From positions 5,704,001 to 5,768,000 of the forward strand of contig NZ_CP065373.1 of assembly GCF_015710575.1 (NCBI RefSeq): DNA of 64,000 bases, written 5' to 3'. Source of the DNA: Mycolicibacterium mengxianglii (GTDB lineage Bacteria > Actinomycetota > Actinomycetes > Mycobacteriales > Mycobacteriaceae). Positions 35,128 through 57,591 of the stretch are shown here, one piece after another. The notes under the pieces were generated by a model. The model was not told where the DNA came from, did not search any database, and saw only the letters and a program-made list of their open reading frames with translations. Made by a program: the position numbers and the translations under genes. The first letter of the stretch is position 1. Each line of letters starts with the position of its first letter.

Positions 35128-36051
35128 ATGGTAAGAGCATTTGGATACACCCGTAACGGCGGACCCGAGGTGGAGGAGTTCCTCGACCTGGAGATGCCGA
35201 CGCCGCTCGCCGGTGAGCTGCTGGTGGAGGTCCGTGCCGCAGGTGTGAATCCGGTGGACTGGAAGATCCGCTCGGGACACTACGGCGGGGCCACTCAGGA
35301 AGGTGTGCCCATCGCGATGGGTCGCGAGGTCTCGGGAGTGGTGCGCGAGGTTGGTAAGGACGTCGAGGGCTTCACCGTCAACGACGAGGTTTTCGGCACC
35401 GTCGCCACCGGTTCTGGTGGTTATGCCGAGTACACGGTCCTACCTGCCGAAGCCGCTGCCAAGAAGCCGCCGCAGGTGTCGTTCACCGACGCGGCGACGC
35501 TGGGGATTGCTGCCGCGACTGCCTACGACGCCGTCACCCAACTCGCCCTCAACGAGGGGCAGACTCTTCTCATCAACGGCATCGGGGGCGGCGTGGGCGT
35601 CGCGGCCGCGCAGATAGCCCGGGGCCTCGGCATCAACGTGATCGGCACAGCGAGCGAGGACAAGCGCACACTGGTCGAAACTCTCGGCGCCACGCTGGTG
35701 GTCTACGGCGACGGCGTGAGCGACCGGGTCAGGCAACTGATGCCCGGCGGTGTCGACGCGATATTCGACCTGGTGGGCGGTGACGGCCTGCGCGCCGTTG
35801 CTGATCTGCTCACCGACCGTGACAAATTGGTCAGCGCCGGCGATCCAGAGACCGTCAGTGAACTGGGCGGGCATATGGTCGAGCGGGATCGCACCACTCG
35901 CGTGCTCGAAATCGTGGGCGCGATGGTCGCCGACGGCAAGCTCGATCCCCATGTCGAGGACATCCGTCCACTCGACGAAGCCGCCGAAGCCGTCGCCGCG
36001 GTGGAGACCGGCCACGCCAGGGGAAAAGTCGTGATCGAGGTCAGCTCCTAG
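35128..36051 (+). CDS. NADP-dependent MDR oxidoreductase, zinc-independent
   Basis: 307 residues with NPVDWKIRSG, a cofactor motif NGIGGGVGVAAAQIA, and the final HARGKVVIEV common to quinone-oxidoreductase-like MDR proteins. It is related to, but clearly different from, the protein at 33954. A 154-base gap with no recognised feature precedes it, and the ribosome site before ATG 35128 is weak. It is convergent with the epimerase gene. Confidence 0.83.
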   Translation: MVRAFGYTRNGGPEVEEFLDLEMPTPLAGELLVEVRAAGVNPVDWKIRSGHYGGATQEGVPIAMGREVSGVVREVGKDVEGFTVNDEVFGTVATGSGGYAEYTVLPAEAAAKKPPQVSFTDAATLGIAAATAYDAVTQLALNEGQTLLINGIGGGVGVAAAQIARGLGINVIGTASEDKRTLVETLGATLVVYGDGVSDRVRQLMPGGVDAIFDLVGGDGLRAVADLLTDRDKLVSAGDPETVSELGGHMVERDRTTRVLEIVGAMVADGKLDPHVEDIRPLDEAAEAVAAVETGHARGKVVIEVSS

Positions 36052-36127
36052 TCGCGGGTCGGCGCGGAACACGTAAACCTCCTGGAAGTAGCCGCGCCTA
36101 CGTTTCTGGCCTGACTGCCGGGGACAC

Positions 36128-37036
36128 TCAGCCGTCTTGCTCACCCTGCAGGTGAGCCAGGTATCGAGTGATGCCTTCGCGTAAGCTCACCTTCGGCTCG
36201 AAACCGAGAAGCTCCTTGGCGCGGTTCAGGACGAACGGGCCCTGGATGTCGTCGTCATCGGGGTCCGGGCCTTTGCCGAATTCGATTCGCGTCTGGGGTA
36301 GAAGGTCGGTCACGATCTCGGCGATCTCGCCGACCTTGAGCATCTCGGCACCCGAGACATTGATCGGTTGGCCATCGAGTTCGGAACCGGGAGCCAGCGA
36401 GCACATGACAGCCCGCACCACGTCGTCGATGTAGACGTACTGGCGGGCTAAATCCGGTCCGAAAGCAGGGCGAGAAACCCGGTGCGCCAGTGCATCTCGA
36501 ATGAACGATGCGATGATGCAGTGGGTGCTCCGCCCAGGGCCGTACACCGCAGAGATACGCAGCGAACAGGTCGACATGCCATACCTGCGGCCGTACACCG
36601 CCAGCAGACTCTCGCCGGCGACCTTGGTGGCACCGTAGACGCTGGATGCCCTCAACACCGTCGCTTGCTCGTCCAGTGGCCCCGGGTTGTTGCCGTAGAC
36701 GGCGTTCGACGAGGCCAACACGACTCGCGCTGTGCCGGTGATGCGCGCGGCCTCGAGCAGATTGGCCGTGCCCCCAATGTTCACGTCGACGATCGACCAC
36801 GGGCGGTCCCGCGACACCATCGGCCCGGAGATTCCGCCCAGGTGCACCACGGACCCGGGTTTGAATCGAGTGAACACCTCATGCACCTGATGCGGGTCGG
36901 TGACGTCAAAAAAATCTCCGACCGTATCGGCCGCGCCGACGACATCGACACCTGCAGCTCCAAGGGATTCCACCAGGTGTCGGCCGACAAACCCGCTGGC
37001 ACCGGTAACCAATACCGGACTCGGTAGATCTGTCAT
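36128..37036 (-). CDS. NAD-dependent epimerase/dehydratase (extended SDR)
   Basis: 302 residues from ATG 37036. GASGFVGRHL is the NAD motif, and SVYGATKVAGE the Tyr-x3-Lys catalytic motif. Downstream sequence (VYGPGRSTHCIIASFIRDAL, YVYIDDVVRAV) fits sugar-nucleotide epimerases and related lactone/uronate enzymes. It lies 89 bases after the dioxygenase gene on the same strand and may be in its transcript. There is no sign of a cell-wall sugar cluster, so it may act on a catabolic intermediate. Confidence 0.8.
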   Translation of the reverse strand: MTDLPSPVLVTGASGFVGRHLVESLGAAGVDVVGAADTVGDFFDVTDPHQVHEVFTRFKPGSVVHLGGISGPMVSRDRPWSIVDVNIGGTANLLEAARITGTARVVLASSNAVYGNNPGPLDEQATVLRASSVYGATKVAGESLLAVYGRRYGMSTCSLRISAVYGPGRSTHCIIASFIRDALAHRVSRPAFGPDLARQYVYIDDVVRAVMCSLAPGSELDGQPINVSGAEMLKVGEIAEIVTDLLPQTRIEFGKGPDPDDDDIQGPFVLNRAKELLGFEPKVSLREGITRYLAHLQGEQDG

Positions 37037-37125
37037 GTTTGGGGCCCCTTCACCGTCGACGGGACATTCCGACTCACCTGGCATCCCGATACCGCTACCC
37101 CCGAACAGAGCCGGACCCTGGACGG

Positions 37126-38214
37126 TCAGGCGATGTTGGTGTACGGGACACCGCCGCGGGCGACACCGTCATGGTTGACCCCACGGTCGAAGTCAAACGG
37201 CAGCGGACGGCCGTTTTCCATTGCGAGCCAGAGTCGTACGAGCAGGCGACGTTGAGATTCGTCTTCGGAGTCGATGAACTCGGAGCGGCCGTGCATGACG
37301 CTGTAGTTGTTGGCGATCACCAAGTCACCCGAGCCGAATCCGACTTCGACGCCGCCTTCGTTGGAGATCTCGTCGAAGACCTCCATGAGCTTGAGCTGAC
37401 GCTCGGTCAGCGGCGGACAGTCACCGCGCTGCTGCGCTGCGTCGATGAGCAGTCGCACATAGCGGCTGGTGATCTTGCCGTTGACGATGGTGCACAGCCG
37501 GGTCAGGTAATAGCTGGTGTCACCTTCCAGGATCTCCATCTGACGATCGAAGGGGAAGTAGTCCTCGAAGAGGGAGGGCAGCAGTTCGGGGTAGCGACGG
37601 GCAATCTCTTTGACGGTGCGTGCCGAACTCGAAACCACCGAGTTGCCGCCCACCATGGCCTGGCGAATGCACATGAGCATCAACAGGTCGGAACCGTCGG
37701 TGTGGTAACCCAGACCCTCGTTGGTGTTCTCCGGCCGAACAATGTCAGCCCGGGCCTTCTTGCGTTGGGCCAGGGAGGCGAGCAGGGTGCCGCCGCCCAT
37801 CTGGTTGACGGGTTGACCGATGGCGGCGCCGATGAGCCAGAGCAGGTTCTCGTTATAGGGCAGTTCGGCGTCCGGGGTGCGCACCGGCAGGTTGCGCAAC
37901 AGAGCGATACCGGTACCCCCCTCGAGGGAATGCTCGACCCCGGCAAAGTACTTGGTCAGTGGTTCGGCGAGTTTCTTCCACTCTTCGCGCGTGCCTCTTC
38001 CTTCCGACCACTGTCCGAACTTCTCGGTTGCTTCCACGGTGAGTTCACCGAGCAGGGCGCTCTCGGTGGCGGTGAGGGCGAGATCCCAGGTATTGCGTCG
38101 GGATTCGAGTTCTTCGGCATTCCAGGCGGCAGGCTCGTCCAAGTTGAGGATGTAGTTACGTACCCGATCCAGACCCGAGGTGATCAGCGGGGTTGGGCTG
38201 AAGGAGGTCGTCAT
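37126..38214 (-). CDS. Fe(II)/2-oxoglutarate-dependent dioxygenase, TauD/TfdA-like
   Basis: 362 residues. The iron triad is His171 and Asp173 in GYHTDGSD and His308 in NNYSVMHGRSEF; the 2-oxoglutarate Arg is in QRRLLVRLWL. This fits the clavaminate synthase/TauD group. The substrate is unknown. A truncated second copy of its first 85 or so codons lies 280 bases upstream (38493), next to the end of the long operon. An IclR-type element at 38443 lies between them, so the enzyme probably works in the same pathway. Confidence 0.83.
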   Translation of the reverse strand: MTTSFSPTPLITSGLDRVRNYILNLDEPAAWNAEELESRRNTWDLALTATESALLGELTVEATEKFGQWSEGRGTREEWKKLAEPLTKYFAGVEHSLEGGTGIALLRNLPVRTPDAELPYNENLLWLIGAAIGQPVNQMGGGTLLASLAQRKKARADIVRPENTNEGLGYHTDGSDLLMLMCIRQAMVGGNSVVSSSARTVKEIARRYPELLPSLFEDYFPFDRQMEILEGDTSYYLTRLCTIVNGKITSRYVRLLIDAAQQRGDCPPLTERQLKLMEVFDEISNEGGVEVGFGSGDLVIANNYSVMHGRSEFIDSEDESQRRLLVRLWLAMENGRPLPFDFDRGVNHDGVARGGVPYTNIA

Positions 38215-38255
38215 GTCTGGGTCCTACTTTCACTTTTCGGTTGGGTGGTTCGTTG

Positions 38256-38340
38256 GCGTCTTCGAGGGTGCGGGCGGCGCGGTAGTTGCGTTTCGCGCAG
38301 TGCGCTTCGCGGCGATCTGCGCAAGCAAGCGTGGCCTCGT
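38256..38340 (-). pseudogene. Remnant of the 3' end of a second ABC substrate-binding protein gene
   Basis: The minus-strand reading contains AKRNYRAARTLEDA, which parallels the C-terminal tail YAHRNYLDAARILEAA of the binding protein at 44707-46071. The DNA is visibly similar there too: both have GGTAGTTGCG in the same place, about 70% identity by eye over 85 bases. No start or upstream coding part remains. With the truncated dioxygenase it suggests a decayed duplicate. Confidence 0.45.
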
Positions 38341-38415
38341 TCTGCCTCAGGTGGGATGCAGTTCCACTGACACCTACTTTCCTGGTCCGCTGTTACGAAT
38401 CAATCGCCGATCTGA

Positions 38416-38459
38416 TTACGGTATGTAAAATCCGAACAGGGCTGTGCAGAATATGCAAC
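38416..38459. promoter_or_regulatory. IclR-type operator element upstream of the dioxygenase (copy 1)
   Basis: TGTGCA-gaata-TGCAAC (38443-38459) preceded, 27 bases earlier, by TTACG (38416). Exactly the same order and spacing occurs at 47444-47487 in front of the IclR gene, with a shared AAATCCG between. The flank CCGAACAGGGCTGTGCAGAA also matches the third copy at 47361 read on the minus strand. It sits about 230 bases upstream of the dioxygenase start. Confidence 0.6.
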
Positions 38460-38492
38460 GGAGACAACTGATTTGCGGGTTGCTGGTCTACG

Positions 38493-38777
38493 TCAGCCGA
38501 CCCCGGAAAAGCACGTGGTCAGTGGTTCGGCGAGTTTCTTCCACTCTTCGCGGGTGCCTCTTCCTTCCGACCACTGGCCGAACTCCTCGGTTGCTTCCAC
38601 GGTGAGTTCACCGAGCAGGACGCTTTCGGTGTCGGTGAAGGCCAGATCCCAGGTATCGCACTGTGATTCGAGTTCTCCTACGATCCAGGCCGGCGGCTCA
38701 TCCAGGTTGAGGATGAAATTGCGTACCCGATCCAGACCGGAGGTGATCAGCGGGGTTGGTGACACTGAAGTAGTCAT
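38493..38777 (-). pseudogene. Truncated duplicate of the TauD-like dioxygenase (N-terminal fragment)
   Basis: 94 codons. The first 88 or so match the N-terminus of the dioxygenase at 38214 almost residue for residue (SPTPLITSGLDRVRN, GELTVEATE, SEGRGTREEWKKLAEPLT) and then stop, before any iron ligand. DNA identity to 37960-38214 is about 85% by eye. It starts 16 bases after the MFS gene of the long operon, so the ancestral operon probably ended in an intact copy. It has no catalytic function. Confidence 0.75.
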
Positions 38778-38792
38778 GGATGACTCCGTAAT

Positions 38793-40034
38793 CTAGTTTC
38801 GGATCAAGGTGGTTCTCAGACGGCCTTCAACTGAGGGGAGCTGGGAGCGGTCAACGGCCGCACGAGGTATCAGCGACCACTGCGCGATTGCGACGAGGAC
38901 GAGAACAACCCCCACTGTGGCAACGGCATCAATTCCGTGCCACGCGTACATAAGCGGTCCCAGCAGCCCCCCGATTCCACCTCCTAGGAACACGATGAAG
39001 CTGAACACCGTGTTGAGCTGGGCGGACCGCTCGGGGTCGGTCGCCAGGGCTCGAACTTGATTGCCCGACAACGCTGATTGGTTCGCCCACGTCGCGACGA
39101 ACATGACAGCTCCGAAAGCGACAGGCGTGTTGCTGGTCAGCAGTATGGCCATCATCGCCGTCAAGAGAACGAGCAGGAAACATCCCGTCATACGCCTGGC
39201 CCCGTGTCGGTCGATGAGGCGGCCCGCATACGGTGTGAAGAAACCTGCGACCAGTCCGACCAGCCCGAAAAGGCCGGCCTCGCCGAGGGTCCAAGAAAGC
39301 TCGGGTCCGGTGAGATGGAGAACCATCACTGTCCAAAGCGCATTGAACGTCGCCAGCACGCATGCCTGGGTCAGTGCTGATCGCACCAGGATCGGGTTGG
39401 ACGACGCCCGCCGCAACGTCGCGAGCACGAGGCGACTGTGCGTCAGTACACCGCCTTCCGGCAGCGGCGCTTTCCGCAGTGCCCAGCGTGTCGAGGGAAT
39501 CGAGGCCGCCACCGCCAGCGCAGAGACGACTACGGTGCCGCGCCAACCGATCCATTCGGTGCACAGGCTGGCCACCACTCTGCCGCCGAAGATTCCGACG
39601 AGCAACGCTCCCACCAGCACGGAGTTCGTTTTGCCTCTACGGTCATCAGCGCTCATCCGGTTTGCCGCTGGAATCAGCACTTGTGAGACGTTCGCGACCA
39701 GTCCGACAGCGAGGAACGCCGCGATCGCGGCGAACACATTCGGTACCACCGCGGCCAACAGCAGCGTGCAGGTGAGGGCGAGCGTCTGGTAGGTCACCTG
39801 CTTTCTGACCTCGAGACGTGCGGCGAGCGGCACGAGGAGCAGGATCCCGACGGCATAACCGACTTGGGTGATGGCCGCAAGGACACTCGCGAGCCCATGC
39901 GATACGCCGAGGTCGCCGGCGATGCTGGTGAGCAGGGACTGCGGGATGTAGATGACGCTGACGGTCAAGCTGCAGGCAACCGACAGAGCGAGCAATCGCA
40001 ACCAGCCCAGTCCCGCGGGAGCGGAATCGGTCAT
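38793..40034 (-). CDS. MFS transporter, drug:H+ antiporter-like
   Basis: 413 residues, about twelve membrane segments. Typical motifs: VSVIYIPQSLLTSIAGDLGVS at the first helix and PLAARLEVRKQVTYQ in loop 2-3. It resembles the YgaY/nimT-type MFS subgroup. The start overlaps the M20 stop (ATGA), so it belongs to the long operon. Whether it imports a second substrate or exports a product is not evident; import already seems served by the ABC genes. Confidence 0.83.
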   Translation of the reverse strand: MTDSAPAGLGWLRLLALSVACSLTVSVIYIPQSLLTSIAGDLGVSHGLASVLAAITQVGYAVGILLLVPLAARLEVRKQVTYQTLALTCTLLLAAVVPNVFAAIAAFLAVGLVANVSQVLIPAANRMSADDRRGKTNSVLVGALLVGIFGGRVVASLCTEWIGWRGTVVVSALAVAASIPSTRWALRKAPLPEGGVLTHSRLVLATLRRASSNPILVRSALTQACVLATFNALWTVMVLHLTGPELSWTLGEAGLFGLVGLVAGFFTPYAGRLIDRHGARRMTGCFLLVLLTAMMAILLTSNTPVAFGAVMFVATWANQSALSGNQVRALATDPERSAQLNTVFSFIVFLGGGIGGLLGPLMYAWHGIDAVATVGVVLVLVAIAQWSLIPRAAVDRSQLPSVEGRLRTTLIRN

Positions 40035-41230
40035 GACGCACCCGTCACCGCAGCGCGGAACTGGGATTCCACCTCCGTACGGATATCTGGATTACTCGCG
40101 AACTCTGCAGCCATGGAAGCCAGTGCGATCGCAGCATCAAAAATGCAGGACTCGGAATCCGGACCGATGCTGGCCTCGTGGAAAGCGTGCGAATGCGGCG
40201 GGATCGACCGCGGCGTCATCTTGACCTGCGGCTGTAAATAGGGCACGCGTCGGCTGAGTGTGCCGGCGTCAGTGGACCAGGCGCCGGAAACCTCGTCGGT
40301 GGGTGTGGGCGAACGTCCCACAGCGCACAGTGCTGCGTCGAAGAGGGACGCCAACGCCTCGATGCCGACAATCGCTTCAGCACACCGTTCGGCAGGTGTC
40401 ACGGTGCATGTCGCACCGACTGCCTCAACGGCCTGCTGGAACGCGTAGGTGACCCGCGCTCGGATCTCGGCGAGCTCGGTGAGGTCTGCGGCCCGCACGA
40501 CGACGGTTGCCCGCGCGTAGTCGGGGACGACCTGCGGGTGGATACCGCCCTCGTTGATGATTCCGTGAATTCTTGCCGTGGGCGGCAGATTCGGACGCAG
40601 CATCGCCATCGCGGAAAAGCCCAGCACGATTCCGTCGAGCGCATTGATACCGAGTTCCGGATGCGCTGCGCCGTGGGCCGGCTTCCCGAAAGACTCGACG
40701 GTCAGCCGTTGCGCCGCAAGGGTGCGCGAGGCGGAGATGTCGTCCATTCCGGGATAGATCGACGTGGCGAAGTCCACGTCGTCGAAAATTCCGGCGTCGC
40801 CGAGGATGTACTTCCCGCCGACACCCTCCTCAGCCGGAGTACCGATCACCAGCAGTCGGAGGTCGAGGTCGTAGGCAAAGGGCCGCAGTGCCAGGGCCGC
40901 TCCATAGGACGCTGCGGCCACAACGTTGTGTCCGCAGCTCTGCCCGTAGGGAGGAAGCCCGTCGTATTCGCAGACAAACGCGACAGTGGTTGCAGCGGAA
41001 TCAGATCCGAACGAAGCGCGGAACGCCGTGTCCATTCCGGCGATTCCACGTTCGACCGCAAACCCATGATCTTCCAACTCCACCACCAGGCGAGCACAGC
41101 AGTCGAACTCTTTCGAGGACTCTTCGACGTGCGAGTGGATGAACTCGCTCAGCTCGACGACGTTGTGCCAGTCCTGCTCCAGTGCCGCTCGGATCTTCGG
41201 TGCGAATATCTCTGCAATGCGGTTGTTCAC
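40031..41230 (-). CDS. M20 family metallo-amidohydrolase (M20D, AbgB/carboxypeptidase-like)
   Basis: 399 residues. Metal sites are visible: Cys-Gly-His in SCGHNVVAAA, Glu-Glu in GTPAEEGVGGK, and His in HSHAFHEAS near the C-terminus. The dimerisation lid lies around residues 185-300 (KPAHGAAHPELGINALDGI). Such enzymes hydrolyse N-acyl, N-carbamoyl or aminobenzoyl-type amides. It starts at a GTG overlapping the PuuE-like hydrolase stop (GTGA), strongly suggesting consecutive steps. Exact substrate unknown. Confidence 0.85.
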   Translation of the reverse strand: MNNRIAEIFAPKIRAALEQDWHNVVELSEFIHSHVEESSKEFDCCARLVVELEDHGFAVERGIAGMDTAFRASFGSDSAATTVAFVCEYDGLPPYGQSCGHNVVAAASYGAALALRPFAYDLDLRLLVIGTPAEEGVGGKYILGDAGIFDDVDFATSIYPGMDDISASRTLAAQRLTVESFGKPAHGAAHPELGINALDGIVLGFSAMAMLRPNLPPTARIHGIINEGGIHPQVVPDYARATVVVRAADLTELAEIRARVTYAFQQAVEAVGATCTVTPAERCAEAIVGIEALASLFDAALCAVGRSPTPTDEVSGAWSTDAGTLSRRVPYLQPQVKMTPRSIPPHSHAFHEASIGPDSESCIFDAAIALASMAAEFASNPDIRTEVESQFRAAVTGAS

Positions 41231-42132
41231 GGAGCGGGATGGTGCTCGAGCCAGTGGTCAGCGATGTCCATCCGGCGGGCGAACCACACCTTTCCCTTCG
41301 CCTGCGCATGTTCGATGAACTCGCGCAAGGCGTTGGCGCGCGACGGTTGTCCGACGGTGCGGGGATGCAGGCCCACCGACATCATCTTGGGTGAGCCGTT
41401 CTCCCCCTCACGCCACAGCTCGTCGAAGGCGCGGGTGATGTAGTCGGAGAACAGGCTGGGGCTCTTGTCGCCCTGGAGGTCGTTGTTGGTCAGGCTGTAC
41501 GGAATGACCAGCTGCTGGTGTTCGCCCATCTTCTTGTAGTAGGGCAGATCATCGTTGTAGGCGTCAGAGTCGTAGACGAATCCGCCTTCCTCGACGACTA
41601 GTTCGCGGGTGTTGACCGAGGCACCGTAGCGGCAGTACCAGGCGCGGGGGCGTTCCCCCCACGTCCGTTCGAAAGACTCGATCGCCAACCGGATGTTCTG
41701 ACGCTCCTCATCGCGGGTGTAGCGCCACACCTCGTTCCATCGCAGTCCATGGCTGAGCAGGTCGTAACCGGCGGCGCGGGCATGCTTGGCGACGTCGGGA
41801 TTCTTCTCGAAGGCTTCGGCGCAGGCGTAGAAGGTGCACGGTACGTCGAGCTCATCGAACAGCCGCATCAGCCGCCAGATGCCCGCGCGGCTGCCGTACT
41901 CGTACATCGACTCGCGCGACAGGTCGCGCGTATCCAACGGGAAGTTGTACGCCGCCTCGACGGGCACGTCGTTCTCCCCATCGCGGTCGAACGAGTACTC
42001 GGACCCTTCCTCGTAGTTGACCACGAGGTTGATCGCGACGTTCGCACCGTTCGGCCACGTCACTTTCGGCGTGTGCTGGCCGTAGCCGACGAAGTCGCGG
42101 ACGGTGCCGGCGCCGGCGGGCGGGGTGTTCAC
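41227..42132 (-). CDS. NodB-fold hydrolase, PuuE (allantoinase/imidase)-like
   Basis: 301 residues from the GTG at 42132, chosen because AAGGAG is 7 bases upstream. The sequence LVVNYEEGSEYSFDRDGEND and GIWRLMRLFDELDVPCTFY is typical of PuuE-type cytosolic deacetylase-fold enzymes, with LLSHGLRWNEVWRY and HPRTVGQPSRA. PuuE relatives open the rings of allantoin and cyclic imides without a signal peptide, as here. Placed between the ABC permease and the M20 gene, it is the likely ring-opening enzyme of the pathway. Confidence 0.8.
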   Translation of the reverse strand: MNTPPAGAGTVRDFVGYGQHTPKVTWPNGANVAINLVVNYEEGSEYSFDRDGENDVPVEAAYNFPLDTRDLSRESMYEYGSRAGIWRLMRLFDELDVPCTFYACAEAFEKNPDVAKHARAAGYDLLSHGLRWNEVWRYTRDEERQNIRLAIESFERTWGERPRAWYCRYGASVNTRELVVEEGGFVYDSDAYNDDLPYYKKMGEHQQLVIPYSLTNNDLQGDKSPSLFSDYITRAFDELWREGENGSPKMMSVGLHPRTVGQPSRANALREFIEHAQAKGKVWFARRMDIADHWLEHHPAP

Positions 42133-42161
42133 TTGCACGCTCCTTATCTGAAACTGCTTGA

Positions 42162-43049
42162 TCAGTCGACCCACCGGGTCAGGTGATTGAGGACCTTCGC
42201 GAGGAGAAGGTGGGTACATCCGGCGACGATGACCACCACAAGTGCGGTGACGGCGACGATATCGGTAGCGGCATAGAGCAACGCGAAATTGAGAATGCGG
42301 CCCAGTCCGTACTGCTTACCGATCACTTCGGCTGCGAGCACGGCGCTCCACGCGAACGGAATGGCGAGGAGAACGCCCACCTTCAGCTGCGGTGTGACCG
42401 ATGGAACGATAACGGACATGTAGATGCGGGCCCGGCTCGCGCCGAGTGAGGTGGCTGAGTCGCTGTAGATCCGAGGGACGTTGTTCACTGCGGCGACCGT
42501 GAGTACGAACAGTAGGACGGCGACCGCGAACGCGGTGAACGAGTAGGTACCGAGTTCGGAGTTACCGAACCACAGACTGAACAGTGGCAGCATCGCGAGC
42601 AGCGGCATCATCCGGAAGAAGTGCGCCGGAAAGGACACCGTGCGCCGGGCTATCGGCGACCAGCTGACGAGCAGCCCTGCCCCGATCCCGACTGCCACTC
42701 CCAAAACGAAACCGATCAGGAAGCGGGACAATGAAATTGCGACGTTGTAACCCAAGCCGAGTGTCGCGCCCCACACGGTCGGTTCGGCGCCGCCCACCGT
42801 GCGCTCGGCGCCGAGCCCGCCCGGCCAGTAGTCGGCGAAGACCATGAACGACGACAGGACATCGGAGATACCGGGCACCAGCCGCATTCCGGAATCGTCT
42901 TCCCCGATGACAACTGACGCGAGCTGCCACACCACCAGGATGAGCGCCAACGACGCTGCACCCCAGTACAGGTCGGCTCTGTTGCGCTCGGGTTTCGACG
43001 CCGACTCGGACTCGAGTGCCGCAGCGACCGGTGCCAGCGTTGCCGTCAT
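42162..43049 (-). CDS. ABC transporter permease, SsuC/TauC-like
   Basis: 295 residues with about six membrane segments and the EAA loop SATSLGASRARIYMSVIVPSVTPQ, as in nitrate/sulfonate/taurine permeases. The N-terminal tail is longer than usual. Its start overlaps the ATPase stop (ATGA). It is the second permease of this importer; the first is at 43843, so a heterodimer is likely, whereas TauC and SsuC are normally homodimers. Confidence 0.85.
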   Translation of the reverse strand: MTATLAPVAAALESESASKPERNRADLYWGAASLALILVVWQLASVVIGEDDSGMRLVPGISDVLSSFMVFADYWPGGLGAERTVGGAEPTVWGATLGLGYNVAISLSRFLIGFVLGVAVGIGAGLLVSWSPIARRTVSFPAHFFRMMPLLAMLPLFSLWFGNSELGTYSFTAFAVAVLLFVLTVAAVNNVPRIYSDSATSLGASRARIYMSVIVPSVTPQLKVGVLLAIPFAWSAVLAAEVIGKQYGLGRILNFALLYAATDIVAVTALVVVIVAGCTHLLLAKVLNHLTRWVD

Positions 43050-43846
43050 CGCGAGAACTCCTCCAGAAGCTGCCTACGCAGTGCGTTCGCCTCGGGACCG
43101 GTGATGTCGTCGGTCAGGCGCGGCCGCGGCAGGTGGACCTTCAAGTCGAGTGCCAGCCTCCCGTGCTTGATCACGAAGATGCGGTCGGCGAGTGTCAACG
43201 CCTCATCGATGTCGTGGGTGACCATGAACACCGCCCGCTTCTCTGCCTCCTGCCACAGGTCGAGCAGGACCCCGTGGAGTTGAGCCAGTCGGAGATAGTC
43301 GATCCCGACAAACGGCTCGTCCATCAGCAGCACCTCGGGCTTGTTGGCGAACACTGCGGCGATCGCCACCCGACGCCGCATACCGCCGGAGAGCTGCTTG
43401 GGCCAGGCGTTGGCGAACTTCTCCAGGCCGATGATCTTGAGCATCTCGGCCACAACGGCCTTGCGTTCATCTTTCGGTATGCCCCGAGCCTTCAAGCCGA
43501 ACTCGATATTCTGTGCCACGGTCTTCCAGAGGAACAGCGTGTCCCGCTGGAAAACAACACCGCGGTCGGGCCCCGGCTTTGTCACCGGGGTTCCTCCGAC
43601 TGTGACGGTACCGCTGGTCGCGGGAAGGAACCCGGCGATCATATTGAGCAGGGTCGACTTACCGTGCCCCGAAGGCCCGATCACACAGATGAATTCACCG
43701 GGCTCGATCCGGAAGGACACCGAGTCGACGCTGGTGACCACCTCGCCCGACTCGAGCCGGAAGTCCTTGGAGACGCTGTCCAGTTCAATCGCCGCGGGTT
43801 GCGTTTTCCCACCCGCGAGTTGATGAGCAGTGGTTTCGACTGTCAT
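43046..43846 (-). CDS. ABC transporter ATP-binding protein, SsuB/TauB-like
   Basis: 266 residues from ATG 43846, preceded by GAGGTGG. Walker A is GPSGHGKST, the signature is LSGGMRRR, Walker B is EVLLMDEP, and the H-loop is in MVTHDIDEA. Signature arrangement and length fit the nitrate/sulfonate/taurine ATPases. Overlaps by four bases with both flanking permease genes. Confidence 0.9.
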   Translation of the reverse strand: MTVETTAHQLAGGKTQPAAIELDSVSKDFRLESGEVVTSVDSVSFRIEPGEFICVIGPSGHGKSTLLNMIAGFLPATSGTVTVGGTPVTKPGPDRGVVFQRDTLFLWKTVAQNIEFGLKARGIPKDERKAVVAEMLKIIGLEKFANAWPKQLSGGMRRRVAIAAVFANKPEVLLMDEPFVGIDYLRLAQLHGVLLDLWQEAEKRAVFMVTHDIDEALTLADRIFVIKHGRLALDLKVHLPRPRLTDDITGPEANALRRQLLEEFSR

Positions 43847-44631
43847 TCGTTCCACCTCACAATCCAACGGCCGGCGAGGCCGATCAGGGCATCAACTACA
43901 ACGGCGACGATGCCGACGACAATCAGGACGCCGATGGCTCCAGCCGTTTGGGTGGCATCAGAGAATGACCGGATCAGACGCCCCGCACCTTGGCTGCCAC
44001 CGAGCACCTCGGCGATGCACTGGAAACCCCACCCGAATGCCGTTGCGGCACGGACAACACCGATGGTGGACGGAACCAATGCGGGCAGGACGACCGACAT
44101 TGTGGTCCGCCTCGTCGAAACACCCAGTGTGGCAGCGTAATCGGCATACCGGGTCTCCGCCACACCCGCCGCCGAATGAACCGTGCTGGCCACGGTGAGG
44201 GCAGTGAAGAAGATCACCAGGCCGTTGGTCGCAAGCGCAGAGTTGCCGAACCACAGTGTCAAGAACGGCAGAATGGCCAGGACCGGGACGGTCCCGAGAA
44301 TGGCCACCGGAAGTCGGCCCAATCGGTGGAACCATTCGATCCGCGCCAGAGCCAGACCCGTGCCGAAGCCGATGACCAGGCCGGTCGTCACACCGAGGAG
44401 CACGTTCTGTGCTGTCCACAGCACGTTGGACCAGACACCCCCTACCCCGAATGTGGTGTAGGCCAGGATCGGTGCCACGTCGAGGTTGTCGACTATCGCG
44501 CCGAAGATGGCGGGGATGCTGGGGAATCGAGCTGCCGTGCTGTTCGCCGACAACGCCGTCCAGATCAGTGCGACCGCCAGCACGCCCGCGATCCCACCCG
44601 CGACCGTAGGACCAAATGTCCTGACGCGCAT
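43843..44631 (-). CDS. ABC transporter permease, SsuC/TauC-like
   Basis: 262 residues. EAA loop: AATLGVSTRRTTMSVVLPALVPS. Five or six hydrophobic helices. It starts 75 bases after the binding-protein gene and overlaps the ATPase start. It shares the LFGNSALATNGL-like WFGNSxL segment with the permease at 42162 (WFGNSEL), so the two are distant paralogues. Confidence 0.85.
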   Translation of the reverse strand: MRVRTFGPTVAGGIAGVLAVALIWTALSANSTAARFPSIPAIFGAIVDNLDVAPILAYTTFGVGGVWSNVLWTAQNVLLGVTTGLVIGFGTGLALARIEWFHRLGRLPVAILGTVPVLAILPFLTLWFGNSALATNGLVIFFTALTVASTVHSAAGVAETRYADYAATLGVSTRRTTMSVVLPALVPSTIGVVRAATAFGWGFQCIAEVLGGSQGAGRLIRSFSDATQTAGAIGVLIVVGIVAVVVDALIGLAGRWIVRWNE

Positions 44632-44706
44632 GTCATTCTCCTTTCACTGACTGGATCTCACTGTCATGTGGATGTCGGCATTGCCACCGGGCTCAGACGG
44701 TCGACA

Positions 44707-46071
44707 TCATTTGACGGCGGCCTCGAGGATGCGGGCAGCGTCGAGGTAGTTGCGGTGCGCGTACTGGGTCGCAGCGAGCTCGGCGAGCTTGGCCTGGTCT
44801 CCGGTCAATCCTTGGGCCTGAGGCAGCAGCGCATCGTACTGTTTTTTGTATTCGACGAGCTCCATGTAGACGTCATCGGCGATGATGAAGTCGGAAGCAT
44901 CGAGGTCGGGGTTGGTGATCACCCCTGCCTCTTGTGCGGTCTTGATCTGCTGGTTGTAGGTCGACTTGTAGTAGTACGGCGATTCTGTGTTGACCCACCA
45001 GTCAGCCTGGTCTTCGAACGAGGCGAACGGGCCGATCTCTTCGAAGACGATCCGAAGAGCATCGGCGGATGTGTCCACCGACGCGGCCGACTCGATAACC
45101 GGCACCAAGGTGTCGATGGCCTCGGTGGTGCCGTTGTTGATGTCGGCAAGGACCGCGTCGGTGATTCGGAAGGCGACCGACGACACGCGCAACATGGTGT
45201 CGTGGTTCTCCTCGATCCACTTTTCGTCGGCGGCGTGACCGACGTGGCCGAGGCCGGATACGGCCCGGGGGTCACCGGCAGGAAGATTTTCGATGAGATC
45301 CTGGAGGCCGATGACGGGGTACCACCCGTCCTCGATCAACTCCGCGGTCTGGACAGCACCGATCGGCTTGGCGTAGTCGAGCTTTCCGCCACGGGCCAGC
45401 AGGAGGGTCTGGGAATCGTCGACAACGCTGACGTTGCCGAAGTCTGCCTGGGAGAATCCGCTGATTCCGTAAACGGCGTCCAGGAAGCTGCGGTGCGCGC
45501 CGAGATCATCGGTTGCGAAGCGCGATCCCTTCATCTCGGTCATGACACTGGTAACCGCGTCCTCGAAGCTCGCGCCGTCCCCCATCAGGTCCGACACAGA
45601 GGATTTGGCCGAGCCCGGAGCGGCGAGGATGGCGAGCCCGCTGGTGACGTCGACGAAGTTGAAGATCTTGATCGACGGTGCGCCCTCCGCGTTGCGAACC
45701 ATGTTGGGGCCGTAGGCGGCAACGACGTCGTAGTCACCGTTCAGGGTAAGCGGAATCTGCTGTTCATCGGAGATGCTCGCGAACTTCGCCGGACCAATGT
45801 CGATACCGACTTCCTCGAACCAGTCGTTGGCCATGCCGATCGACAAAATCATGTTGTCGGCGTACGGCATCATGCCTACGTTCACGAGCTCCTGCGGGAT
45901 CTCAACACCGTACTTCTTGAGCAGCTCGTTGTCGGTGACCGTGCTGGGGCCCGCGGCGACCGGCCCGCCGCTGCTGTCATCGCTTGAGCACGCGACGAGG
46001 GCGCCGCCGAGAGCAACGCATGCCGCGAGCGCAACTCCACGAGAGAGAGTGCGCCGAGAGGTTAATGTCAT
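44707..46071 (-). CDS. ABC transporter substrate-binding lipoprotein, NMT1/SsuA-like
   Basis: 454 residues from ATG 46071 after AAGGAC. Twin-arginine-like basic start (SRRTLSRG), hydrophobic stretch and lipobox LVAC place it as a lipoprotein. The body has LTLNGDYDVVAAYGPNM and FNFVDVTSGLAIL, typical of NMT1/THI5-like and nitrate/taurine binding proteins. It is longer than the usual 330 residues; the extra part is C-terminal. Decayed similarity to its last 30 codons is found at 38256. Ligand unknown. Confidence 0.83.
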   Translation of the reverse strand: MTLTSRRTLSRGVALAACVALGGALVACSSDDSSGGPVAAGPSTVTDNELLKKYGVEIPQELVNVGMMPYADNMILSIGMANDWFEEVGIDIGPAKFASISDEQQIPLTLNGDYDVVAAYGPNMVRNAEGAPSIKIFNFVDVTSGLAILAAPGSAKSSVSDLMGDGASFEDAVTSVMTEMKGSRFATDDLGAHRSFLDAVYGISGFSQADFGNVSVVDDSQTLLLARGGKLDYAKPIGAVQTAELIEDGWYPVIGLQDLIENLPAGDPRAVSGLGHVGHAADEKWIEENHDTMLRVSSVAFRITDAVLADINNGTTEAIDTLVPVIESAASVDTSADALRIVFEEIGPFASFEDQADWWVNTESPYYYKSTYNQQIKTAQEAGVITNPDLDASDFIIADDVYMELVEYKKQYDALLPQAQGLTGDQAKLAELAATQYAHRNYLDAARILEAAVK

Positions 46072-46105
46072 GACTGTCCTTGTCTTCGCGAGGGTTGGTC
46101 GTGCA

Positions 46106-47299
46106 TCACAGTTCGACGAATGCGGATGTGAGCTGTTGATCATTCGTCATCCATCGGCCGCCACCGGGTGTCACAAGGATGTTGTCGGTGAGGCCGAAGA
46201 GGCCGAACTTTGCTGTCTCTTCAGGTGTTCCGAACAGCCGGTGGGGATGGATGTTCACAACTTCGTTTTCGATGAGAAGTCGGTCGTTTCCACTGACCCA
46301 CACTCCCTGGATCGCGTCCGTTCCGATGCCGTGAAGATGGAACGAACGGTGCTGGTCTGCGGGGGTGGTGTAGTCGAGCTCGATTCCATGTGAGCGGAAT
46401 GAGGTGGCTACACCTTCGACGAATTCGCTTGCCATGGCGCCCGGTCTCATCGCCGCGACGCCGGCCTGATGGGCTTCGATGCAGATCTGCCACATGTCGC
46501 GGTACTCCGGGGAAACAGGCCCGACAGAGTACATGCGGCGATACTCCAGCCACGTTCCGTTGGGGCCCGCGGATTCGATCCAGACTGTCACCACGTCACC
46601 GCTCTCGATGACCTTCTGCGTCCCGAACGTCGTGGCCCCCTTGAAAGGGGTTGAGTCGAGGACGACCATGGGATCACGGACTCCGTGCTCACGGCAGATC
46701 CGATGCGCTTGGGCCGCCAGCCGGATTTCGGTCACACCGGGCCTGACAAACGCTTCGAGCTCCGCGTATATCGAGTTCCAGCACGCCGAGGTGCCCGTCA
46801 GCGCAGCGAGGGACTCGGCACTGTTGACCTGCCGGCACTTTTCGAAAAGATCGGTGGCATCGCTGATCTGGGCGTTCGGTAGCGCATCGCTGAGCTGCAT
46901 GTAATGGCTGTAGGCGAAACCCCCGTCGTCCAGTCCTACGACACCGATTTTTCCGGCCGACACCCTCTGCTCCGCGAGAACGTTGCCAATCTCGGTGCCA
47001 GGAGTGCCACTGAGACGACACTCCGAGATCCAATCGGACTGGCGAGCCTGCGAGATGCCCCATACGGTGCCCCCGATCAAGACCGGGCCGGATGAGTGCG
47101 TGAGCACGACGTGACTATCGGCGAAGAGCTGCCAGTAGTCCGTTGCATAGAAGACCCTGCCGCGGAACCGAATATCGTCGCGACCCGCAATGACCAACGC
47201 GTCGAGACCGTGCAAAGTCATCGCGGCACGGAGTGCGTCGACGCGTCGTGCGCGCTCTGCGTTCGTGGTGAAGCGATGATCCGCAACTAGCTGCGTCAT
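46106..47299 (-). CDS. M24 (creatinase/Xaa-Pro peptidase) family protein with degenerate metal site
   Basis: 397 residues from ATG 47299. An N-terminal creatinase-like domain (DALVIAGRDDIRFRG, FADSHVVLTHSSGPVLIGG) is followed by a pita-bread domain (about residues 155-397). Canonical metal ligands look altered: the usual D-x-G...Y-x-S-D-x-T-R region reads WIESAGPNGTWLEYRRMY, and the final E-P becomes NIHPHRLF. The catalytic-type His of HLHGIGTD stays. This recalls creatinase, which cleaves a C-N bond without metal. First gene of the long operon, divergent from iclR. Confidence 0.75.
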   Translation of the reverse strand: MTQLVADHRFTTNAERARRVDALRAAMTLHGLDALVIAGRDDIRFRGRVFYATDYWQLFADSHVVLTHSSGPVLIGGTVWGISQARQSDWISECRLSGTPGTEIGNVLAEQRVSAGKIGVVGLDDGGFAYSHYMQLSDALPNAQISDATDLFEKCRQVNSAESLAALTGTSACWNSIYAELEAFVRPGVTEIRLAAQAHRICREHGVRDPMVVLDSTPFKGATTFGTQKVIESGDVVTVWIESAGPNGTWLEYRRMYSVGPVSPEYRDMWQICIEAHQAGVAAMRPGAMASEFVEGVATSFRSHGIELDYTTPADQHRSFHLHGIGTDAIQGVWVSGNDRLLIENEVVNIHPHRLFGTPEETAKFGLFGLTDNILVTPGGGRWMTNDQQLTSAFVEL

Positions 47300-47360
47300 G
47301 TAGTGGTTCCTCGTCTCGGCTCGACCGTCGCAAATCTGTAGCAGTTCCGACAACCAAAGG

Positions 47361-47377
47361 TGTGCATTTTCTGCACA
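47361..47377. promoter_or_regulatory. IclR-type operator element (copy 2), M24-proximal
   Basis: TGTGCA-ttttc-TGCACA is a perfect 6+5+6 inverted repeat 61 bases upstream of the M24 start. On the minus strand its flank reads CCGCACAGGGTTGTGCAGAA, which matches CCGAACAGGGCTGTGCAGAA at copy 1. Confidence 0.65.
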
Positions 47378-47443
47378 ACCCTGTGCGGCGTTGAGCAAGA
47401 ATGACATTGGAGGCTGAACGTTACGAAGACGCTTCCTAATTCG

Positions 47444-47487
47444 TTACGTTGTGTTAAATCCGCGCAGTGATGTGCACCAGCTGCAAC
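47444..47487. promoter_or_regulatory. IclR-type operator element (copy 3), iclR-proximal
   Basis: TGTGCA-ccagc-TGCAAC (47471-47487) with TTACG 27 bases upstream (47444) and AAATCCG between, the same layout as at 38416-38459. It lies 111 bases before the iclR start codon and is a likely autoregulatory site. Confidence 0.6.
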
Positions 47488-47597
47488 AGTTGAGGGCAAG
47501 TACGGCTATCTTCATCTACGCTGCGAACGAGATCGCGTAAGCGAGATTCAGCCGCTTACAACTCAATTGACGCAGGCATGTTCATCGAAGGAGAGCG

Positions 47598-48329
47598 GTG
47601 ACGCAAGTTACTCTCCGCGCAGCGGAGATCATCGAACGCATCGCGGAGCAGCCGATGTCGGTGGCTGAACTCGCAGAGGAGTTCGATGTTCATCGATCAT
47701 CGATGTTCCGCCAGCTGAAGTCGTTGGAACACATTGGCTATGTCAGACGTCGCGACGATGCTCGGTTCGTGGTAGGGGCGAAACTAATCGCGCTGGCCCG
47801 ACTGAGCTTCGACGATGTTGATCTACGTCAGGCGGGCTACCAGCACGTGCGAAAGCTGCACGCGAGAGTCGGCCACACAATCCAGTTGGTCGCGCTGATC
47901 GGCGACAGCTTGATTTACGTCGACAAAGTCGAGAGCGCATCGGGTGTCGGTATGTACTCCCGCATCGGCCGTGAGGCACCCGCCTACTGCAGTGGGGTGG
48001 GGAAAGTCATCCTGGCGGCGCTCGACCCCTATCGTCGGGATGCGATCCTCGATTCGACTCCTTGGAAGCAGTTCACCCCCAACACGTTCACCACGCGCGC
48101 GCAACTCGACGCGGCGTTGGACCTAGCGGCCGAACGCGGCTGGGCAGTGGACGACCGCGAGCTCGACATGATGATCAACTGCCTCGCCGTCCCTATTTCC
48201 GGCCCCCCCGGGGTGGTCGGTGCGGTGTCCGTGACAGCGGTATCGAGCGTCGAAGACATCGAATCGCTCATGAAGTATCTGCCTCTTCTGCGGGACACCG
48301 CCGGCGCGATCGAGCGCGATCTAGGGTGA
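47598..48329 (+). CDS. IclR family transcriptional regulator
   Basis: 243 residues, starting with GTG 47598 behind GAAGGAGAG. The N-terminal winged HTH contains SVAELAEEFDVHRSSMFRQLKSL in outline, and the C-terminal effector domain has VGMYSRIGREAPAYCSGVGKVILA and ELDMMINCLAVPISGPPGVVGAVSV, the conserved effector pocket. It diverges from the long operon and overlaps the amidase start (GTGA). The three TGTGCA-N5-TGCA elements are the probable binding sites. Confidence 0.88.
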   Translation: MTQVTLRAAEIIERIAEQPMSVAELAEEFDVHRSSMFRQLKSLEHIGYVRRRDDARFVVGAKLIALARLSFDDVDLRQAGYQHVRKLHARVGHTIQLVALIGDSLIYVDKVESASGVGMYSRIGREAPAYCSGVGKVILAALDPYRRDAILDSTPWKQFTPNTFTTRAQLDAALDLAAERGWAVDDRELDMMINCLAVPISGPPGVVGAVSVTAVSSVEDIESLMKYLPLLRDTAGAIERDLG

Positions 48330-49645
48330 CCTATTCTAGCTATCATCGGAGTCGTTCCCTGTTCGACGACATCCAGTATCGCGCTGTCGCAGAACAAGTT
48401 CGGGCAGTTCAGTCGCGATCAGTTTCGGCACTCGACCTTGCTGTCCGCGTTCGGCGAGACATTGAGTCAGAGGAGCCCAGGATCCACGCATGGGTGGCCC
48501 TATCAGAAGATGTGGAACAGCATGCGACCGCGGTCGACGAGAGTCCGGAGGCCCTTCCGCTCGCGGGGGTATCAGTCGGCGTCAAGGACATCATCGACGT
48601 CGAAGGACTTCCCACCCGAGCAGGGACTATCCTCACCGGCTCGGAGCCCGCCTCCTCCGATGCTGCGTGCGTGATGAGGCTGAGGTCACTCGGTGCCGTG
48701 GTTCAAGGAAAGACGGTTACGACGGAGTTCGCCTATCTGCACCCTGGCCCCACGCGCAATCCGCACGCGCTCGACCGTACTCCGGGTGGGTCTTCGAGCG
48801 GTTCTGCCGCAGCGGTCGGTGCTCGGACGATTCCGGTGGCCCTTGGCAGTCAGACGGCGGGGTCATTGACGCGACCCGCGGCGTACTGCGGCGTGGCGGG
48901 GCTGGTTCTCCCGTCGGGTTCCGTCGACATGGCAGGAGTCGTCGGCCTGAGTCAGAGCCTGGACTCGCTCGGTCTGATGACTCGAACTGTCGATGATCTC
49001 CGCTACGTGCATGCGACCTTCACGACGGGTGACCCCCCGGCTGATACGGCGGCTGCGTCTCAGGTCCGGGTGTGGGATGGCGACGGCCTGGCCGACCTCG
49101 CCCCGGAGATGTCAGCACTGGTCGCGTCGGTTCCTGTGTTGATGGCGGAACTCGGTGTTCAGACCCAGAGATTGGATTGGGCGGAGCACGTCCGCCGACT
49201 CACCAAAAAGCACCTCGACGTCATGTCGTACGAGGCACTTCAAATCCGCCACCGTGAGTACGCGGACCATGCCGCGCAGCTCAGTGAGCCGCTGCTCGAA
49301 CTCCTCCGTGCCGGGGAGAAGGTCTCCTTTGAACAGCACGCATCGATATTGAGATACCGCAATGAGACCTTGGACAGGCTCACGGACCACTTGGGCGAGG
49401 AGGCGGTGATCGTCGGACCTGCAACTCCCGGCCCCGCACCGAGGGGACTGCAGTCGACAGGCGTGTCGGTATTGAGCCGCGCCTGGCAACTTCTCGGATT
49501 GGCTGTGGTGGTGGTGCCCGGCGCGCGGACACCCTCGGGCCTGCCGCTGGGACTACAGATCATCGGACTACCTGGAGCCGAATCGAGGATGCTCCATCTA
49601 GGCGCAAAGCTCGAGCAAGCACTTCACGACCGCTATCGGTGGTGA
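48326..49645 (+). CDS. Amidase (amidase signature family)
   Basis: 439 residues from GTG 48326, coupled to iclR. The Ser-cisSer-Lys triad is complete: Lys87 in VGVKDIID, the GGSSSGS loop around Ser157-158, and Ser180 in GSQTAGSLTRPAA. Such enzymes hydrolyse carboxamides, including half-amides from imide ring opening, to acid plus ammonia. It is slightly shorter than typical 460-500-residue members. Co-regulation with the divergent PuuE-like and M20 hydrolases is inferred from iclR and the shared elements. Confidence 0.85.
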   Translation: MTYSSYHRSRSLFDDIQYRAVAEQVRAVQSRSVSALDLAVRVRRDIESEEPRIHAWVALSEDVEQHATAVDESPEALPLAGVSVGVKDIIDVEGLPTRAGTILTGSEPASSDAACVMRLRSLGAVVQGKTVTTEFAYLHPGPTRNPHALDRTPGGSSSGSAAAVGARTIPVALGSQTAGSLTRPAAYCGVAGLVLPSGSVDMAGVVGLSQSLDSLGLMTRTVDDLRYVHATFTTGDPPADTAAASQVRVWDGDGLADLAPEMSALVASVPVLMAELGVQTQRLDWAEHVRRLTKKHLDVMSYEALQIRHREYADHAAQLSEPLLELLRAGEKVSFEQHASILRYRNETLDRLTDHLGEEAVIVGPATPGPAPRGLQSTGVSVLSRAWQLLGLAVVVVPGARTPSGLPLGLQIIGLPGAESRMLHLGAKLEQALHDRYRW

Positions 49646-50162
49646 CCACCTTTCTGAGGCGCCAAACACCCCTGCACGTCGACTTTCTCCTACGCGCTGG
49701 GTGACGTGCAATGGATGCTGAAATCGCCACGGCCCCGACGCATCATGCGACCGCGGGCTGCGCTCAGCCGGGCGCTTCCTGAATCAGTACGCCGTCGGCT
49801 TGGATCACCAACGGTGACGATAGGTCCGTGGGGCGACTACCGGACGCCAGCCTGTGGACCCTTATGCCGATCAGACGTATGTTCGTGATATCTGCATTCC
49901 GAGCGTTGAGCGGGCCAAGGAGACCAGCGGCACAGGGGCGAACGGGGGGAACTCGTCGCCGCCGACCTGCCGGGGCTGGCGGCGAAATCATGCGGTGGTG
50001 GATGGCACTGTGCGGCCCGCGGCTGGGCCACCATGACCTCCCCCGTGGACTCACCGTTGCATACCTGGTGCTCGTCGACGCCCGCAGCGGTAGCGATACC
50101 CACCGCATGCGCCGCCGCACCGCCCGCTTCGAGCGCCTGTCCGTCGCGGCGAGAGGTGTGCC
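49646..50162. other. Region before the metal ATPase: only doubtful small ORFs
   Basis: About 517 bases between the amidase and P-type ATPase. A plus-strand frame (49828-50166, with internal ATG starts) overlaps the ATPase start as GTGA, and another (49854-50036, beginning MDPYADQTYVRDI) has protein-like composition at first. Neither gives a recognisable protein, and the frames seem to shift. This could be a decayed gene or a coupled small ORF. No hairpin or operator was clear. Confidence 0.3.
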
Positions 50163-54424: not shown

Positions 54425-55005
54425 GGTTTACGCCCCCCTCGGGTCAACGGATGCTGTGAGGTAAAGCGTACGCGTATTCGCAGGTTACGTTCAGAAAAGT
54501 CCACCCCCCTTCTTCGAATTCACGGCGCTTTCGAGGCCGCTTGCGTCATTGACCACCCGTTGTCTCACCCTTTGCTCTGACGACTGTCAACATATCTCTC
54601 GCCTCAGGCCGATGGGCGTCAGATGTTTGCTAGTTGGACTTTCGCCTGCGAGTTCCACAGGCACTCGCTATTCGCGTCCGCTCCAAACTGATAACCGTCA
54701 TTCTGAGGCCGCGGAATGCGGCTGATGAATCCAATTATTTGTGTTGGTGAACGCAATTAATTCGTGAACGAGTTGGCAGGGGAAACCAGTTGCACGGGGT
54801 CCGATGATGAAGTTCTAATCGACTCCAGACGAACCGCTCGATCAGTCGCGGCGACCACCCCGCCCGCTGAGCAGTCGTGCGGCGACCCATGCCTTCTTCT
54901 GGACCGCACGTCGGCGACGCATTCTGGCCGGCATCGCCATCCTCGAGCACCAGGGCCTCCCCCTGAGATGTCGAGCGCAAATCGTCTCTGGCACATCCGA
55001 TCTCA
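54425..55005. other. Intergenic region of 581 bases, no gene supported
   Basis: It lies between the start of the secreted protein and the end of the alpha/beta hydrolase gene. Lower GC than its surroundings (for example AATTATTTGTGTTGG near 54733). Short ORFs exist on both strands over 54735-55063 but their products are not protein-like. It should contain the promoter of the secreted protein gene. Confidence 0.4.
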
Positions 55006-55869: not shown

Positions 55870-55913
55870 GGGTGTGCCCTTCGGGGGATTGAAAGTGCTG
55901 GCTGACAAGCGAT

Positions 55914-56321: not shown

Positions 56322-56460
56322 GACGGATCCTTAACGGAAGATCAACCGGGACAGGATTTCTGCTCGGCTATGCGGGCGGGGCGGCCCAGAACGGGCCGTC
56401 CCAGCGAACCCTCTTGCACGACACCCATGACACTCCGGACCGACCTGAGACGTCCAATAC

Positions 56461-56481
56461 CTATCGGCAACCGATCGATAG
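56461..56481. promoter_or_regulatory. LysR-type operator in the divergent region
   Basis: CTATCG-N9-CGATAG (56461-56481) has T-N11-A-like geometry, and inside it ATCGG-caa-CCGAT (56463-56475) is also perfect. It is 46 bases before the LysR start, 140 bases before the divergent small-protein gene. Confidence 0.55.
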
Positions 56482-56527
56482 TCAGGAACTAATGGTGGTC
56501 AGAGACCTCCTCAACTACGGTTGACCT

Positions 56528-57526: not shown

Positions 57527-57591
57527 ACGCCGGGTCCTGCAACAACATCGACCGGGTTTCGCACTGCCGTTGCCAGTGCGGGCATAAGGGT

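Follow-up and report, generated by a model that had tools for sequence, protein, structure and literature searches.

In M24 metallopeptidases the metal is held by five ligand residues (D, D, H, E, E), and proteins resembling the allantoinase PuuE are commonly annotated as polysaccharide deacetylases or allantoinases. PuuE, the ectoine hydrolase DoeA and creatinase are described as acting on small molecules, namely allantoin, ectoine and creatine. The fungal nicotinate regulon uses an imidase, HxnM, and then an amidase, HxnN, with a 2-oxoglutarate dioxygenase, HxnY, also present (PMC9304392). Here we describe a gene cluster of Mycolicibacterium mengxianglii, lying between 37126 and 49645 of a 64,000-nucleotide window (positions 5704001-5768000 of the 5.96-Mb one-contig genome), in which genes for a PuuE-like and an M24-like protein stand together with those for an ATP-binding cassette (ABC) importer, an M20 enzyme, an MFS transporter, an amidase, a dioxygenase and an IclR-family regulator.

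The kinds of enzyme are known; their combination in one cluster is not. In line with an earlier note on this DNA, no described pathway with this gene set was found in the open-access literature searched (titles and abstract openings; most subscription journals lie outside). We propose, giving this reading about an even chance, that the cluster is an IclR-controlled, inducible regulon that scavenges a single small C-N compound, probably a cyclic one (a cyclic amide, imide, ureide or amidine).

Conservation and organization of the cluster

The cluster is genuine and conserved: three genomes of the genus keep its order. Searching 396 genus genomes, the window's own included, for the M24 gene (E 1e-40) returned three carriers: the window's own genome, G862 (locus L100) and G857 (locus L101). 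Both others have the identical order, IclR / M24, substrate-binding protein, permease, ATPase, permease, PuuE, M20, MFS, dioxygenase, with protein identities of 75-94% for the genes running from M24 through MFS and of 87-96% between intact dioxygenases. The gene-order search in other actinobacteria that the earlier note had suggested thus returned these two genomes, and a five-gene core in five loci described below; the note's refuting condition, an order confined to this one genome, does not hold. An amidase gene follows iclR in G857 (69% identity), giving orthologs in 2/3 loci. The flanking genes of L101 differ on both sides; L100 has an epimerase gene in common on one side and an integrase-core gene beyond iclR. 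Because carriers are few, the order is the same and flanks differ, the cluster looks like a rare, movable island. GC content is 59-64% in 36001-50000 of the window versus 63-70% leftward, and 54001-60000 is about equally low.

Close orthologs of the M24 protein and of the binding protein are labelled Mycolicibacterium baixiangningiae, M. vaccae and Mycobacterium sp., which places the carrier among the environmental members of Mycobacterium taken broadly. Sampling across the phylum gave an M24 relative (E 1e-40) in two of 396 genomes, the window's own and G506; a search centred on G506 found only that genome among 24, on a 3.5-kb contig without other cluster genes. In a sample of the family, a binding-protein relative (E 1e-20) occurred in 2/301 genomes, again the window's own and one other, G269 (30% identity), where the ABC genes have a hydantoinase A gene nearby and no PuuE, M24 or M20 relative alongside. 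In another genus of the family, L102 (2976-10933) holds a 28-30% binding-protein relative and ABC genes near a hydantoinase A/oxoprolinase gene.

The genes from M24 through MFS fit a single operon, because the gaps between consecutive open reading frames (ORFs) are only -38 to 75 bases (-38, 75, -25, -4, 26, -4 and -4 for the longest ORFs, with the PuuE start at 42135). The minus-strand operon proposed earlier, 47299 to 38793, holds up: M24 begins with the ATG at 47299-47297, in agreement with its 397-residue orthologs, and the MFS stop at 38793 marks the operon end. For the PuuE-like gene the most likely start is the GTG at 42132 behind AAGGAG rather than 42219, which makes the permease/PuuE gap 29 bases rather than 26; the amidase start is likewise most likely GTG 48326 and not 48062. 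We also recovered the four-base overlaps of PuuE/M20 (41227-41230) and M20/MFS (40031-40034), which suggest translational coupling and not, as had been thought, successive reactions. The iclR-amidase pair does face the operon divergently, the end of iclR overlapping the amidase start by GTGA. C-N hydrolases between 37126 and 49645 number four (M24-like, PuuE-like, M20 and amidase), not five.

The M24-iclR intergenic region contains an inverted repeat, GTGTGCATTTTCTGCACAA, at 47360-47378. Its counterpart is TTGTGCA-N5-TGCACAA in L101 and TTGTGCG-N5-CGCACAA in L100, where both arms are altered symmetrically. With up to one mismatch allowed, the repeat is the sole occurrence in the whole genome. 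A weaker repeat at 47470-47488 lies in a block that is partly conserved among the three loci. Judged from the sequence, IclR may bind the 47360-47378 repeat, which we regard as a putative operator.

The PuuE-like and M24-like proteins

The PuuE-like enzyme lies outside the allantoinase subfamily. Against the allantoinase model TIGR03212 it reaches 320.8 bits, short of the curated cut-off of 424.6; equally below it are both mycobacterial orthologs (321.6 and 314.3 bits) and seven proteins of six other loci (304-355 bits), while a true PuuE paralog elsewhere in the genome (3478407-3479291; L094/L104) reaches 516.8 bits. The loop motif is WYCRYGASVNTREL, and the pattern WYCRYG(A/P)SVNTREL stands where allantoinase has WYTGRTGPNTRRL; a later loop is shortened by five residues. 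In a tree of 90 rows, the protein groups with Acidimicrobiia and Arthrobacter-type proteins in a clade of 15 rows (100/99), separate from a three-row allantoinase clade (100/99); we take the PuuE clade as 16 rows once L023 is added. Allantoin had been considered as the leading substrate and was dropped, given the sub-cut-off score of the operon copy and the true PuuE elsewhere.

For the M24-like protein, profile alignment to prolidases places W276, E288, H359, H387 and T407 at the metal-ligand positions, with only H359 kept. The first four of these residues are invariant across 18 alignment rows and T407 is nearly so. A normal M24 peptidase is not supported, and prolidase-type chemistry is unlikely because four of five metal ligands are lost. 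The sources of its relatives name them Xaa-Pro aminopeptidase or M24 metallopeptidase. The predicted structure has the two-domain fold of M24 enzymes, DoeA and creatinase and appears to fit DoeA slightly better, although the Z lead over prolidase is only 1.8.

Importer and accompanying enzymes

The modelled binding protein has an NMT1/SsuA/TauA-type fold. The model gave no specific structural match from which a ligand could be read, a PDB sequence search with the protein gave only cellobiose phosphorylase-type matches (E 0.086 or worse), and a PF09084 search did not have the locus's own binding protein among its matches. The M20 enzyme belongs to its family by the motifs C-G-H, E-E and H-x-H, which we take to be the metal-ligand motifs, and scores 146.4 bits against TIGR01891, just under 153.75. 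The amidase is a family member well above the PF01425 cut-off of 27 bits, with K, GGSSSGS and GSxTxGS motifs that presumably form the Lys-Ser-Ser triad; the NCBIfam amidase models shown are all under their own cut-offs for it.

The dioxygenase carries H171-x-D173 and H308, presumably the Fe(II)/2-oxoglutarate dioxygenase motif, and its nearest solved chains are 7n7v and FrbJ 5eqn. It adjoins MFS in all three Mycobacterium loci. Within the 578 bases that separate MFS from the intact gene lies what is left of a second copy, 93 residues of its N-terminal part (38499-38777; 83% identity to the intact copy, E 1.6e-50 in tblastn). G862 has two intact copies with 318/363 positions equal, stop included, and G857 has a 53-residue remnant. 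The likely ancestral arrangement is therefore a tandem pair beside MFS, and this connects the dioxygenase with the operon. Of the co-regulation claimed for this gene, cluster membership stands, supported by the remnant and the adjacency to MFS; a mismatch-tolerant pattern search of the window found no operator-like site of its own in front of the gene. On its other side the dioxygenase gene is adjoined by an NAD-dependent epimerase gene (window 36128-37084), which G862 has (78%) and for which no counterpart was found in the fetched G857 stretch. All features are listed in Table 1.

Table 1. Features of the cluster in window coordinates
Feature	Position	Strand	Basis
TauD/TfdA-type Fe(II)/2-oxoglutarate dioxygenase, 362 residues	37126..38214	-	Pfam TauD 71.8 bits
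N-terminal remnant of second tandem dioxygenase gene, 93 residues	38499..38777	-	tblastn with intact copy
MFS transporter	38793..40034	-	Pfam MFS_1 105 bits
M20 amidohydrolase/dipeptidase-type enzyme	40031..41230	-	Pfam M20_dimer and Peptidase_M20 above cut-off
PuuE-like, putatively ring-opening hydrolase, non-allantoinase subfamily	41227..42132	-	TIGR03212 score, motif, tree
ABC permease 2	42162..43049	-	BPD_transp_1 56.3 bits
ABC ATPase	43046..43867	-	top models SaoA/nitrate/taurine type, every one under cut-off
ABC permease 1	43843..44631	-	BPD_transp_1 54.6 bits
Substrate-binding protein, predicted NMT1/SsuA/TauA fold	44707..46143	-	~454-residue orthologs suggest start near 46071
M24-family hydrolase without usual metal ligands, 397 residues (ectoine hydrolase/creatinase-like reading)	46106..47299	-	
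Probable IclR operator, TGTGCA-N5-TGCACA inverted repeat	47360..47378		conserved in 3/3 loci
Second, weaker operator-like repeat, closer to iclR	47470..47488		3 mismatches
IclR-family regulator	47598..48329	+	IclR_C 123.7 bits, HTH_IclR 37.2 bits
Amidase-signature amidase, 439 residues	48326..49645	+	Pfam Amidase 187.5 bits

Related loci beyond the genus

Relatives of the PuuE-like protein were confirmed in genome contigs at least 573 times, and the best 80 were kept as loci, with genes called from GC content by a script that placed some ORFs on the wrong strand or made them too long (e.g. in L016, L021 and L055). The core of M24, binding protein, ATPase, permease and PuuE recurs in the same order in 5/80 loci (L015, L018, L020, L021 and L022), all of them Acidimicrobiia or unnamed-bacterium metagenome-assembled genomes. 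A second permease follows downstream in four of the five, L020 ending there; in four there is an additional M24 gene as well as one of F420 type. Further genes of these loci, named from L022, encode a short-chain dehydrogenase/reductase (SDR; this name from L012), a 2-hydroxyacid dehydrogenase and a class III aminotransferase. Of the 13 fetched non-mycobacterial loci of the clade, 10 have an M24 relative within 9 kb of PuuE, versus none of the 67 outside it, and such a relative accompanies PuuE in 3/3 Mycobacterium loci; tblastn at E 1e-5 found no M24 relative in the other 70 of the 80 (some contigs are short).

Elsewhere the neighbours differ. In five Arthrobacter/Pedococcus-type loci (L011, L012, L013, L014 and L017), PuuE lies between an SDR gene and a second M24 type, for which loss of the metal ligands was seen in the L012 copy only. 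The annotation of L012, which is on a plasmid, lists nucleoside hydrolases, a hydantoinase-like gene, SDRs, PfkB and glycerate kinase, and these five clusters possibly encode a breakdown pathway for modified nucleosides. A cyclic amidohydrolase-like gene cluster is represented in 12/80 loci (annotated in L012, as hydantoinase-type, and L024, as Amidohydro_1, only), and hydantoinase/oxoprolinase genes occur in L021 and L102. Since genes of cyclic-amide chemistry recur near these relatives, a cyclic C-N substrate is supported. In four alphaproteobacterial or proteobacterial loci (L033, L055, L057 and L060), two PuuE-like genes have an M20 gene behind them that shares 42-47% identity with that of the operon. 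Separately, in L030 (5868-10885) the neighbours of a PuuE-like gene are two isochorismatase-type hydrolases and a DAO-type FAD oxidoreductase, a set that resembles a methylhydantoin/carbamoylsarcosine route.

Proposed function and alternatives

We read the cluster as a co-inherited catabolic regulon because its order is kept in three genus genomes, a five-gene core recurs in five loci and the inverted repeat is conserved. In the scheme we envisage, the NMT1-type importer would take up a small cyclic C-N compound, and the PuuE-like enzyme, an allantoinase paralog with an altered active-site loop, would hydrolyse a ring C-N bond. The M24 enzyme, lacking metal ligands, would cut a second C-N bond, in the ring or in the opened product; the M20 enzyme would cleave a remaining amide bond, and the amidase, where present, would release ammonia from a terminal amide. 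The dioxygenase may hydroxylate or dealkylate substrate or product, and MFS may move a product or analogue. The amide/imide regulon of the earlier note keeps its co-inheritance, importer and several C-N hydrolases; it loses the hydrolase count and the fixed order of ring opening, half-amide cleavage and N-acyl/carbamoyl cleavage, which is unsupported, the amidase being without an ortholog in one of three genomes. Use of amides, imides or ureides is a reasonable class of interpretation.

Several results weigh against the proposed regulon. In G862 no amidase ortholog was found, the best match genome-wide being a 40% relative. A backward control pattern of the repeat likewise has one match per strand in the genome, so the case for the operator rests on conservation, and with up to three mismatches the window holds eight matches where 1.49 would be expected, of which six lie outside the promoter. 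Prolidases lead the comparison of the M24-like protein by sequence, and Foldseek puts prolidase first for its model. The neighbour counts and hydrolase cluster counts depend on rough gene calls and single-linkage clusters.

By analogy with HxnM and HxnN, the PuuE-like protein might instead be an imidase opening a glutarimide-like ring, the amidase cleaving the half-amide. This is unlikely, even though HxnM is related to the PuuE-like superfamily and works with an amidase and a dioxygenase under one regulon (PMC9304392), and 11/67 loci outside the clade have an amidase gene no more than 9 kb from PuuE. None of the 13 clade loci has such a gene, and G862 is also without one. Moreover, that source places HxnM nearest to HpPgdA (3qbu) (PMC9304392), from which the PuuE-like protein is far more distant (E 1.3e-11, in a comparison outside which AAY98498 and HxnM themselves stood) than from its nearest solved relatives, the PuuE structures 1z7a and 3cl6 (E about 1e-76).

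An ectoine-like breakdown of a cyclic amidine, with M24 opening the ring as DoeA does and M20 deacylating as DoeB2 does, would draw on the DoeA-like fit of the M24 model. We consider it quite unlikely: the Z lead is just 1.8 with prolidase at the top in Foldseek, scores fall far short of the equivalog thresholds of 613 and 550 bits (38.4 bits for the M24-like protein against the DoeA model TIGR02993, cut-off 613), no scanned operon gene reaches the DoeA or DoeB2 cut-off, and the PuuE-like enzyme is left without a role. Use of peptides or cyclic dipeptides, in which the PuuE-like enzyme would open a diketopiperazine and M20 and M24 act as dipeptidases, is very unlikely. The closest solved chains of M20 are HmrA and Xaa-Arg dipeptidase (3ram, 8xzc), those of M24 by sequence are prolidases/PepE (e.g. 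4ege, 5cdl), and L033 has a dipeptide-type ABC ATPase close to its PuuE-M20 genes; the loss of M24 metal ligands argues against prolidase-type chemistry, and we know of no NMT1-type importers for peptides. A second allantoin/ureide pathway, with the PuuE-like protein as allantoinase and the other hydrolases processing allantoate, is highly improbable, since the 320.8-bit score and the PuuE structures as top solved relatives are set against a true PuuE paralog, another loop motif, separate clades and a genome in which uricase PF01014 was not found (other uricase types were not sought).

Returning to the scavenging regulon, a wider Actinomycetota route can be sketched, tentatively and at somewhat less than an even chance: a non-allantoinase PuuE subfamily and a metal-site-less, DoeA/creatinase-like M24 protein would together dismantle one class of N-heterocycle, with importers differing by lineage, and the mycobacterial version would be extended by M20, an amidase and a tandem-duplicated dioxygenase, with an IclR operator in control. 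The locus indicates that these M24 and PuuE subfamilies have functions other than those annotated and belong together. Knowledge of the substrate would put annotations in Actinomycetota right and could contribute a pair of enzymes that open small C-N rings. As this is an ordinary kind of catabolic island, our surprise is moderate.

Comparison with known systems

Measured against the ectoine catabolic cluster (doeA, doeB, doeC, doeD), the operon does not have doeA and doeB side by side. The M24-like protein resembles DoeA/EutD and creatinase in its predicted two-domain fold and in one His kept at a ligand position, making these enzymes candidates for a non-peptide C-N reaction; it differs from them in having 16-18% identity in structural alignments and a score far under the NCBIfam DoeA cut-off, the creatinase catalytic residues lying outside the residue-by-residue comparison. 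Prolidase/PepE are nearest by sequence, but their ligands are replaced by W276, E288, H387 and T407. With PuuE allantoinase (TIGR03212; 3cl6, 1z7a), the PuuE-like protein shares the superfamily and the NYEEG and SHGxRW motifs, and the second His of the superfamily's HxxxH metal motif is absent in both; score, loop, five-residue deletion, clade and the true PuuE elsewhere in the genome set it apart.

The Aspergillus HxnR nicotinate regulon, in the accessible part of its account, likewise combines an imidase of the wider superfamily, an amidase and a 2-oxoglutarate dioxygenase under one regulator; unlike our locus, it has no M24, M20 or NMT1 importer named there, and HxnM is nearest HpPgdA, not PuuE (PMC9304392). 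The Arthrobacter-type clusters have, by the L012 annotation, an SBP_bac_1 importer and two nucleoside hydrolases, hydantoinase-like, SDR, PfkB and glycerate kinase genes, with no M20, amidase or dioxygenase relative within the fetched stretches, but they share with the locus the same PuuE clade and an M24 relative directly behind PuuE.

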